From assembly GCA_021413905.1 (NCBI GenBank), contig JAIOPO010000006.1, positions 1 through 45,828 on the forward strand: 45,828 nt of DNA. Direction: 5' to 3'. Below the pieces are notes generated by a model, which was not told the origin of the DNA, did no database searches, and worked only from the letters and a program-made list of their open reading frames with translations. Positions 16,802 through 45,742 of this stretch are shown piece after piece. Origin of the DNA: Candidatus Nomurabacteria bacterium. Lineage in GTDB: Bacteria > Patescibacteriota > Minisyncoccia > Phycocordibacterales > UBA9973. The position numbers and the translations under genes are program-made. How positions within the stretch are numbered: position 1 is the stretch's first letter; each line of letters starts with the position of its first letter.

Positions 16802-18169
16802 TTATTTTAAATTTAATTCCCAAAGATAGGAATCTTTTTTATTTACAAAATAAAGATAATTTTCTCCTTCATCTGTAGCGAGTTGTGTACCGTCTATATC
16901 CCCTCCTATTGTAGGTAAATCAGCTATTAGTGAGCCACTTCCTGTAACAGTATCTATTTTCCATATTTGATCAGTAAAAGACACTAATCCTTGATACCAA
17001 TCATCTGGATATGATCCAGAATTTAAAAATTCAGGAACACTGCAGTAAATAAAATCATTGTTTTTACTCCAAACACATTTCTCTGGTAGTGTTTTCATGC
17101 TCAATGTTTTTGAGGTTAATGTGCCTGTTGAATAAATATTTAAAGACATATTACTATTGCCATATAAAACCATTTTTCCATTTGGGCTTGTTAGTGTGGT
17201 TAATCCATTTATATTGCTTAGTATTTTATTGAAATCTTTTTTATCGGGATCTATTGAATACATGTATCCCGGAGCAAAAGCCGAAGGTTTGGCTGTTAAA
17301 GTAACCATTTTATCATTTGGATATTGTGTCAGCCATTCATTGAATGCAGAAGTGAATATTTGAGATTTCTTATTATTTAATATATCTGAACTTATTCCTA
17401 TAGAATTTTCATTTAAGTTAAATAAATAAAATATTTTTGATGTGTCTGGAGAAATGCTGTAATCTGTAATGTCTTCAGGAAGAAAAATACCTTGCACGCT
17501 GGTGTCACTGGTTGTGTCCCCTCCTATTACTTCTTTTGGCAAATTACCAACAAAAGTTTCTATTGTTTTGTTGTCTGATTTTAAATATCTCATCACGACA
17601 GTATCTCCATTGTTTCCGAAATATGCGTCGTGAACTCTTGGTATTATGGTTGTTGTAAATCTTCTTTCGTCTATTCTACTTGCAAGTGTTTGATAAATAT
17701 TTCCATTTTCTTTTGCAATGTATTTTACCGCTGGTACAAATTCTGTGGCTGGAGCTGTGGGTTTTATAGCTGTTTTTATTTTTGTTGCAATTTTTTGTAT
17801 TGGAGATGTTGCAGTATCGGTTGGATTTGTTTCTGTTGCAGGTGTCGGTAAAATATCAGGAACTTCTTTGAAAATTTCTTTTTTGTATATAGTGAAACCA
17901 GCTATTGGCATGCTTGAAACTCTGTTTAATTTTTGTTTTTGGGGTGTTGTATTGTCTGTGCTTGGTGTGTATCCTGATATATCTGTCGGGTTTGTATTTG
18001 TGGGTGTTTGTAGTTTTGTTTTTCCAAAAGGAAAATATGAAATGAAATTATTTACCACTGGTGTTACTGTGTTATTTACACTTTTGCCTGATAAAAATAC
18101 ATAACCAAAAAAAACCAAAAGTATTATTGATAAGATGATTATTAAGATTGTGATGTTTTTTCTTAGCAT
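16802..18169 (-). CDS. Membrane-anchored WD40/TolB-like protein, last gene of the T4SS-like cluster
   Basis: N-terminal TM segment, then repeated beta-propeller-like segments (SPNGKMVLYGNS, CVWSKNNDFIYCSVP, TDEGENYLYFVNKKDSYLW). Confidence 0.55.
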   Translation of the reverse strand: MLRKNITILIIILSIILLVFFGYVFLSGKSVNNTVTPVVNNFISYFPFGKTKLQTPTNTNPTDISGYTPSTDNTTPQKQKLNRVSSMPIAGFTIYKKEIFKEVPDILPTPATETNPTDTATSPIQKIATKIKTAIKPTAPATEFVPAVKYIAKENGNIYQTLASRIDERRFTTTIIPRVHDAYFGNNGDTVVMRYLKSDNKTIETFVGNLPKEVIGGDTTSDTSVQGIFLPEDITDYSISPDTSKIFYLFNLNENSIGISSDILNNKKSQIFTSAFNEWLTQYPNDKMVTLTAKPSAFAPGYMYSIDPDKKDFNKILSNINGLTTLTSPNGKMVLYGNSNMSLNIYSTGTLTSKTLSMKTLPEKCVWSKNNDFIYCSVPEFLNSGSYPDDWYQGLVSFTDQIWKIDTVTGSGSLIADLPTIGGDIDGTQLATDEGENYLYFVNKKDSYLWELNLK

Positions 18170-44470: not shown

Positions 44471-44508
44471 GCGCGCAACTAGAAAAAATACTCATAAAAA
44501 CTATTGTT

Positions 44509-44547
44509 GAAAACACAAAAGCCCCGTTTAGGGGCTTTTGTGTTTTC
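44509..44547. terminator. Terminator of the 44558-45505 gene
   Basis: GAAAACACAAAAGCCCC-gttta-GGGGCTTTTGTGTTTTC perfect 17-bp arms. Confidence 0.8.
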
Positions 44548-44557
44548 AATTCCCATT

Positions 44558-45505
44558 TTAGTTTATTGAGAAAGAATTATCTGAATAATCATTTGGCGCA
44601 ATACATCCAGAGCCAGCACAAGAATCTACAATATAAATTTTAAATGGATAACCAACTGGTCCAGGGAAATAATCCCACATCGTAGGGCTTACTGTAAATG
44701 TTTCAGAACCATCATTTGGAGTACTTTGTATGATTGGCGCACTGGTTGTGTGTGCTCCACTGGAAACTGATGCAGAAAGATCAATTCGTAGTTGTGTAGT
44801 TGCAGGCACATTACAACTTGTCCAAGTGACCGTAGCTTGCTGACCTCTTGTCCATGTTTCGCCTCCGTTCGGGGAAAGCACTTTAATTGAAGGAGGATCA
44901 TTAGGAGAACAATTAGCTTGCTGGTTGGTATTTATAGTAAAAGAATTATCAGACCAATCGTTAACGCCTCCTGGCCCATAACTAGAAACAGAAATTTTGA
45001 ACGGATAACCATTTGGTCCAGCAAAATAATCAACAATCGTACTACTCAAAACGAAAGTTTCAGAACCGTCATTAGAAGTATTTTGTACAACCGGCAAGCT
45101 TGTTGTGTGTGCACCACTAGAAACTGATTCTGAAAGTGTAATTCCTAATAGTGTGCTTGCCGATAGATTACAACTCTTCCATTTTACGGTAACTGTTTGG
45201 CCAACATGGTAAATCTCTCCACCGTTCGGTGAAAGAACCGTTATTGAAGGATTGCATGTTGGTGTAGGAGGTGGTGTTTGCTGTTGTGGTGGATTATTCG
45301 CAGGCGGAGGAGTTTGTTGTTGAGAAGGATTATTATTTGTAGTCGGCGGAGTATAATTTTGTTCCGTCGTCGGGAAATAATTTGAGTTATCTGCTACTTT
45401 CGGAGTAGAACTTTTTCCCGCAAAGTATGCAACTCCGCCGACCGCTAAAACTCCAAGCACTATTAGTAAAACTACGACTGGTGCGAAACCTTTATTGTAT
45501 TTCAT
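44558..45505 (-). CDS. Membrane-anchored surface protein with two tandem Ser/Thr-rich Ig-like repeats and Pro/Gln/Asn-rich linker
   Basis: N-terminal TM (NKGFAPVVVLLIVLGVLAVGGVAYFAG); ITVLSPNGGEIYHVGQTVTVKWKSCN... and IKVLSPNGGETWTRGQQATVTWTSCN... repeats. Confidence 0.8.
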   Translation of the reverse strand: MKYNKGFAPVVVLLIVLGVLAVGGVAYFAGKSSTPKVADNSNYFPTTEQNYTPPTTNNNPSQQQTPPPANNPPQQQTPPPTPTCNPSITVLSPNGGEIYHVGQTVTVKWKSCNLSASTLLGITLSESVSSGAHTTSLPVVQNTSNDGSETFVLSSTIVDYFAGPNGYPFKISVSSYGPGGVNDWSDNSFTINTNQQANCSPNDPPSIKVLSPNGGETWTRGQQATVTWTSCNVPATTQLRIDLSASVSSGAHTTSAPIIQSTPNDGSETFTVSPTMWDYFPGPVGYPFKIYIVDSCAGSGCIAPNDYSDNSFSIN

Positions 45506-45542
45506 AATGATTTAATCTTATCATAATTACTAGCTAGCAAAA

Positions 45543-45642
45543 AGCTCCTAGCCAGCGATAATCCGAAGATTACCCATACCCCTTTCGGGATATGACACAA
45601 CCAGTGCGAACTCTGACTAGGAGTTCTTTATTCTGGTTGTGT
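45543..45642 (-). ncRNA. Candidate 5'-UTR structured RNA (riboswitch-, attenuator- or ribozyme-like), family unknown
   Basis: Minus-strand RNA order A(45642-45633) B(45623-45613) A'(45604-45595) HP CAUAUCCC-GAAA-GGGGUAUG (45594-45575) HP GGUAAUC-UUCG-GAUUAUC (45574-45557) B'(45555-45545); G-U pairs only on the minus strand. Confidence 0.7.
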
Positions 45643-45715
45643 TTCGCGACCATATCATTTTGATTTTTAAGGGCAAAATGGGTTAGGTCTTTCTATTAAA
45701 TTGACATCTATAGAA

Positions 45716-45742
45716 TAGCATTTTTGGTTTAAAAATGCTATT
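45716..45742. terminator. Hairpin, possible terminator
   Basis: AATAGCATTTTT...AAAAATGCTATT inverted repeat. Confidence 0.5.

Follow-up and report, generated by a model that had tools for sequence, protein, structure and literature searches.

The window, by which is meant the entire 45,828-nucleotide stretch of DNA analyzed here, carries on its minus strand a structured RNA element (about 45704-45530) followed by the gene for a 315-residue surface protein. The gene begins with an ATG at 45505, as expected from the initial annotation which had placed the element upstream of a surface-protein gene, and its product possesses a hydrophobic anchor at the N-terminus together with an Ig domain of the Kre9/KNH-like type. 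The features of the locus are listed below with the support for each in parentheses.

45712-45717, minus strand: probable -10 box TATTCT, 7 nt ahead of the conserved start motif (family spacing)
45693-45704, minus strand: TCAATTTAATAG, local form of ACAAYTNAAT and probable transcript start (start placed from spacing)
45557-45689, minus strand: LOOT RNA, Rfam RF03000, comprising P1, P2, P3 and P4 (covariance-model match)
45682-45687, minus strand: CCUAAC, read as the 5' strand of an 11-nt-type GAAA tetraloop receptor (sequence, family comparison)
45650-45654, minus strand: UAUGG, read as the receptor 3' strand (sequence, family comparison)
45633-45642, minus strand: P2 5' arm (block A of the initial annotation), ACACAACCAG, variable and copy-specific (sequence, family comparison)
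45613-45630, minus strand: B strand of the pseudoknot helix, UAAAGAACUCCUAGUCAG (family pairing and covariation)
45623-45613, minus strand: block B as first delimited, CTCCTAGTCAG (sequence)
45595-45604, minus strand: P2 3' arm (block A'), CTGGTTGTGT, listed also as CUGGUUGUGU (sequence, Rfam match)
45575-45594, minus strand: P3 hairpin with its GAAA loop at 45586-45583, proposed to dock to the P1 receptor (sequence, covariation)
45557-45574, minus strand: P4 hairpin with a UUCG loop (sequence, Rfam match, covariation)
45555-45545, minus strand: block B' as first delimited, CTGGCTAGGAG, followed by TTTTTG (sequence)
45538-45555, minus strand: B' strand of the pseudoknot helix, CUGGCUAGGAGCUUUUUG, beyond the Rfam model (pairing and covariation, held-out loci)
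45530-45538, minus strand: candidate competitor strand aB, GCUAGCUAG, alternative to B as partner of B' (minimum-energy fold, family statistics)
45506-45529, minus strand: remaining leader up to the start codon, in which no P2 mimic was detected (leader scan)
44558-45505, minus strand: downstream gene, 315 aa, surface protein (ORF and domain analysis)

When the window was scanned with cmscan against all 4227 Rfam families, matches were obtained to LOOT RNA (RF03000) and to one tRNA, and to nothing else. The LOOT match spans the full length of the model (1-121) with a score of 72.1 bits against a gathering cut-off of 46.4. The element is a LOOT RNA and hence belongs to an already known RNA family, whereas the initial annotation had recognized no known family and had named a cmscan match as the outcome by which the RNA would not be novel. 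P1-P4, the conserved CCUAA/AUGG letters and the GAAA loop of LOOT are all present in the window copy, and no departure from the family was noted. The view of the element as a compact structured RNA on the minus strand was upheld, as the nested fold of the region has a z of -6.6 (none of 200 shuffles folded equally well) and both the Rfam match and the covariation are on this strand. The complementary blocks were all located where they had been described, in the order A-B-A'-B', but the 5' limit that had been set is too short, with P1 at 45689 and the probable RNA start near 45704. The Rfam model itself ends at P4. Neither the pseudoknot with its B' strand nor the 5' start motif, the competitor strands of the leader or the start-codon mimic, all described below, forms part of it. 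In the literature searched, which did not include the original LOOT description, LOOT was found only in structure-method papers. Twenty-eight unusual cross-covariations have been reported in LOOT (PMC7657543), and a revised Rfam LOOT structure has two more covarying pairs (PMC11701678). The family comparisons that follow used 134 LOOT loci and a further 60 held-out loci from other parts of the phylum (Patescibacteria).

The pairing of B, which is located between the P2 arms, with B', which follows P4, was assessed across the 134 loci. The mean pairing score was 30.9 compared to 16.6 with swapped partners. In an alignment of 52 sequences, 95.8% of cells in the B:B' helix were paired and 12 of its 15 pairs bore changes on both sides, which are the compensatory changes in homologs that had been suggested as a check; sliding the partners reduced pairing of the whole structure from 91.6% to ~40%. 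Among the held-out loci (n = 60), 75% attained a B:B' score that was reached by 12% of swaps. The helix has a conserved mismatch followed by A-rich and U-rich strands, extends over a median of 17 positions, and begins right where the P2 5' arm stops. Judged by covariation, which also establishes the overall fold, B:B' is a real pseudoknot helix of ~17 positions that closes onto P2. The pseudoknot-type pairing suggested at the outset is thereby strongly backed, and the B/B' contact is genuine although its length had been understated: the strands are 45630-45613 and 45555-45538.

The U-run at the end of B' had been offered as part of a possible terminator. However, pairing with the A-rich strand continues through the U-rich stretch, so the U-run is best regarded as a helix strand. 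Moreover, it is not conserved as a U-run: many relatives have UUUGUG or UUCUGUG with compensating changes opposite, as in L015 and L046 in which UUCUGUG is accompanied by matching changes in the facing strand. An intrinsic terminator at this site was rejected and a terminator role for the U-run is unlikely. Nor was the suggested likeness to double-pseudoknot ribozymes of the HDV type sustained. The pairing order A-B-A'-B' is all that the two have in common, no catalytic RNA family in Rfam matched the window, no sign of either a cleavage site or a catalytic core was seen, and no hairpin lies between B and A' once the pseudoknot forms.

The sequence CCUAAG/UAUGG is the textbook 11-nt receptor for a GAAA tetraloop. 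At the conserved positions of P1, 53 LOOT copies have CCUAAA/CAUGG, 48 have CCUAAC/UAUGG and three have CCUAAG/UAUGG; thus the exact receptor sequence occurs in three of 132 copies and close variants in most. A GAAA loop caps P3 in 131 of 132 relatives, and the window copy has all of the conserved letters (CCUAAC, UAUGG and the P3 GAAA). The conserved CCUAA/AUGG is interpreted as an 11-nt tetraloop receptor and the P3 loop as its partner, which would be expected to dock in P1. The GAAA/11-nt receptor pair is found in group I and II introns and in RNase P, with which LOOT shares CCUAAG/UAUGG in the three copies as well as the near-invariant GAAA. In contrast to these RNAs, position 6/7 in LOOT usually is A/C or C/U instead of G/U, and docking here is predicted. 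The GAAA tetraloop/11-nt receptor motif is the subject of PMC3494683. A reading frame within LOOT starting from the conserved AUGG also was considered and is unlikely in view of indels between copies, as judged by eye for one copy.

The ACAAYTNAAT motif was found in 112 loci ~14 nt upstream of LOOT. TATAAT-like -10 boxes precede it by 6-7 nt in the family, a spacing that suggests that LOOT RNA begins at the motif. Downstream, 134 of 135 loci have an ORF of 45 aa or more whose start is no more than 200 nt away, with a median distance of 58 nt and an interquartile range of 48-66 nt. The upstream box and start motif combined with this narrow ORF spacing indicate statistically that LOOT constitutes a 5' leader. 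Rfam files the family as 'Gene; sRNA', whereas its position and the leader statistics lean to a cis-acting leader. A 12-bp A/T-rich inverted repeat (AATAGCATTTTT/AAAAATGCTATT; 45714-45742, minus strand) overlaps the probable LOOT -10 region in the window and is a possible operator or upstream hairpin.

The 134 downstream ORFs fall into 93 similarity clusters. DNA methylases are the commonest downstream Pfam family (7 of 120), followed by DUF4352, zinc ribbons, bPH and others. The products, which include DNA methylases, nucleases, zinc-ribbon and DUF4352 membrane proteins and surface proteins, share no pathway. This pattern bears on the proposal that LOOT is an unrecognized metabolite or ion riboswitch in which the receptor-docked pseudoknot would form a ligand pocket and the leader strands an expression platform. 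The 5'-leader position and the compact conserved core joined to a variable, competing expression platform agree with such a riboswitch, and alternative leader pairings that reach the start region, a riboswitch trait, were found in a subset of LOOT RNAs, the mimic being absent from the window. Nevertheless, the downstream genes lack a common pathway, P2 is freely variable even though it is one of the core helices, and the proposal is a special case of the cis-acting translation switch favored below to which it adds a purely postulated ligand. A ligand-binding riboswitch is considered improbable.

The 5' arm of P2 is variable and copy-specific across LOOT loci. A mimic was defined as a repeat of the P2 5' arm in the leader of the same locus with a score of at least 9. 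Mimics were detected in 39 of 134 own leaders compared to 0.36% of 5269 swapped leaders and 0 of 134 upstream regions; the loci are related and the swapped controls accordingly are not fully independent, a limit that is answered in part by the methylase genes and held-out loci described next. Where an ATG follows within the scanned stretch, the gap between mimic and ATG in the 134-locus set is -1 to 7 nt. At the unchanged threshold, 11 of the 60 held-out loci possessed a mimic versus 0.69% of 3490 swaps, with gaps of -3 to 9 nt. The ATG is inside the mimic in L320 and L329. Thus, the presence of the mimic is statistically well founded. The repeat generally retains the basal part of P2 in full and is truncated towards the apex (27 apical broken positions versus one basal). 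From the identity of the mimic with the P2 5' arm, we infer that the mimic can pair with the P2 3' arm and that this pairing would influence translation. Compensatory G-U changes for the pairing were too sparse in the family loci to be of use.

Seven homologous DNA-methylase genes are preceded by LOOT copies with six different P2 sequences and the leaders match their own P2 in seven of seven cases. Among locus pairs with the same P2, 55 of 58 have unrelated downstream ORFs. As P2 differs between copies yet matches the leader of the same copy, each LOOT RNA would appear to address its own gene. The methylase loci also are pertinent to the idea that the leader repeat is a by-product, namely a duplicated target site, of a mobile promoter-LOOT-leader module that spreads before unrelated genes. 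Unrelated ORFs do follow the same LOOT and the same leader, with similarity stopping at the start codon in several pairs, and copy number is patchy (0-7 per genome). However, a target-site scar would not track six P2 sequences ahead of homologous methylases, nor would its truncation be confined almost entirely to the apical side, and this origin of the repeat is thought very improbable.

Another explanation is that LOOT is a separate small RNA, freed by termination or cleavage, whose P2 3' arm acts antisense in trans on mimic-bearing start regions of its own mRNA and of genes following other copies. The Rfam type, the promoter-like -10 box which would provide LOOT with its own start, and the P2 sequences which all differ within one genome as fits orthogonal addresses are in accord with this model. 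So is the L123 leader, in which CCATCCAAGG directly before the ATG corresponds to P2 of a LOOT RNA in another genome (L114) and not to its own P2, a leader that possibly is a remnant after LOOT exchange. Against this model, no conserved terminator follows B', where the U-run belongs to a helix and frequently reads UUUGUG, nearly all loci have an ORF within a narrow range of distances, and P2 is closed in the RNA such that a target in trans would be no more accessible than one in cis. A trans-acting small RNA is viewed as unlikely. For the window copy specifically, a trans target was rejected as none of the occurrences of ACACAACCAG in the window represents a start-codon target. The sequence appears five times in the genome: two are the P2 arms themselves, one is at 44742-44751 in the downstream coding region, one is at 17508-17517 on the minus strand inside the ORF at 16802-18169, and the fifth is on another contig. 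The recurrence at 44742-44751 lies in the second domain of the surface-protein gene and probably is due to chance.

Many leaders hold a second potential competitor, aB, directly after the U-run that is able to pair with B'. An aB score of at least 20 was observed for 32% of loci versus 8.3% of swaps and 1.5% of shuffles, and in the held-out set for 32% versus 10% of swaps and 3.8% of shuffles. The enrichment over swapped leaders is 3-4 fold, and similar B' strands inflate the swap controls so that the test is conservative in this respect. In the window, aB pairs as CUGGCUAG with CUAGCUAG in the minimum-energy fold, a match that, taken by itself, does not reach significance (rank 0.26 among swaps). 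For loci with a mimic, duplex energies average -19.9 kcal/mol for P2 and -19.0 kcal/mol for the mimic with the P2 3' arm; the choice between these pairings thus is nearly balanced. The corresponding values for B:B', B':aB and the local B hairpin are -26.8, -16.6 and -5.2 kcal/mol, respectively. There is no linker from the P2 5' arm to B and a median of 5 nt separates B from the P2 3' arm, a spacing that leaves little room for a helix of 17 positions when P2 is fully formed.

The explanation that best accommodates these data is that LOOT acts in cis, as a 5'-leader switch that governs translation of the following gene, to which we assign a probability of approximately 0.55. The RNA would fold into P1-P4 with the pseudoknot helix B:B' closing onto P2, as the covariation implies, and with the P3 GAAA loop docked in the P1 receptor, as the sequence motifs predict. 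In a subset of leaders aB would take B' away from B, and in a subset the repeated P2 5' arm reaches up to or into the start codon. In the proposed ON state the P2 3' arm would be paired with the P2 5' arm leaving the start codon free, whereas in the OFF state it would be paired with the mimic and the start codon would be covered. As the two pairings are predicted to be about equally stable, a small input, such as a ligand, a protein, ribosome traffic or folding kinetics, could decide between them. Plausibly, B that is zippered up completely through its A/U end may strain or open P2, thereby freeing the P2 3' arm for the mimic, and capture of B' by aB may relieve this strain. The initial annotation had asked whether the two helices coexist or compete, and the competitors which leaders add for both helices favor a switch. 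The wider interpretation is about evenly poised: LOOT RNAs may be self-addressed translation switches in which a shared tertiary core controls unrelated accessory genes, the 5' strand of the P2 address is copied onto the start codon of the controlled gene, and addresses and targets change together, thereby allowing several orthogonal copies per small genome.

SAM-II and preQ1-II are pseudoknot riboswitches that control translation. LOOT resembles them in its 5'-leader position, pseudoknot core and alternative pairing near the start codon. Unlike these riboswitches, LOOT has no known ligand or common downstream pathway and features a variable P2 with a copy-specific duplicated strand.

Approximately 70-80% of copies, including that in the window, have no mimic detectable at a score of at least 9, and for this reason the switch is not claimed for them. 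The window copy retains the fold and possibly the aB strand without a clear mimic. A relative with the P2 of the window copy, L076, has the mimic ACACAACCAGtgctATG 4 nt before its ATG. Leaders of genes encoding signal peptides (the window, L017, L032, L037 and L083) seem to be devoid of P2 mimics, and the window and L083 have a different leader sequence in common, GCTAGCTAGTAATTATG. In L016, L024, L028 and L041 the B' end UUUUUGCGU is matched by ACGCAAAAA ahead of the ATG, which is striking by eye. A second leader class founded on this pairing is not claimed as it was only about 2-fold above swaps in mimic-less loci.

LOOT was present in 30 of 61 genomes of the family, 107 of 392 of the class and 85 of 389 of the phylum, compared to 0 of 14 control genomes, and the genome of the window has seven copies. 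Most of the named records that match a strict LOOT B' pattern belong to Nomurabacteria and other Paceibacterota. Among the Patescibacteria genomes sampled, between about a fifth and a quarter contain LOOT; gene regulation in this large group is little studied. Until now no function had been attached to the covariance model of this family; the start-codon mimic supplies one that can be tested, and its copy-specific match means that LOOT-controlled genes should be predictable from sequence alone. If the interpretation is correct, these RNAs would be natural orthogonal switches on one scaffold, distinguished from one another solely by a stem and the copy of that stem, and would offer a ready design for synthetic riboregulators. 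In candidate viral contigs from IMG/VR, a loose pattern gave many matches of which the covariance model retained five strong ones (L214, L151, L221, L166 and L173); one of these, L166, carries a start-codon mimic. At the window locus, the surface protein (44558-45505, minus strand) contains a pair of similar domains ('SPNGGE...'). Directly after its gene, a hairpin rich in G+C (AAAAGCCCC..GGGGCTTTT; 44500-44545, minus strand) looks like the terminator of this gene.
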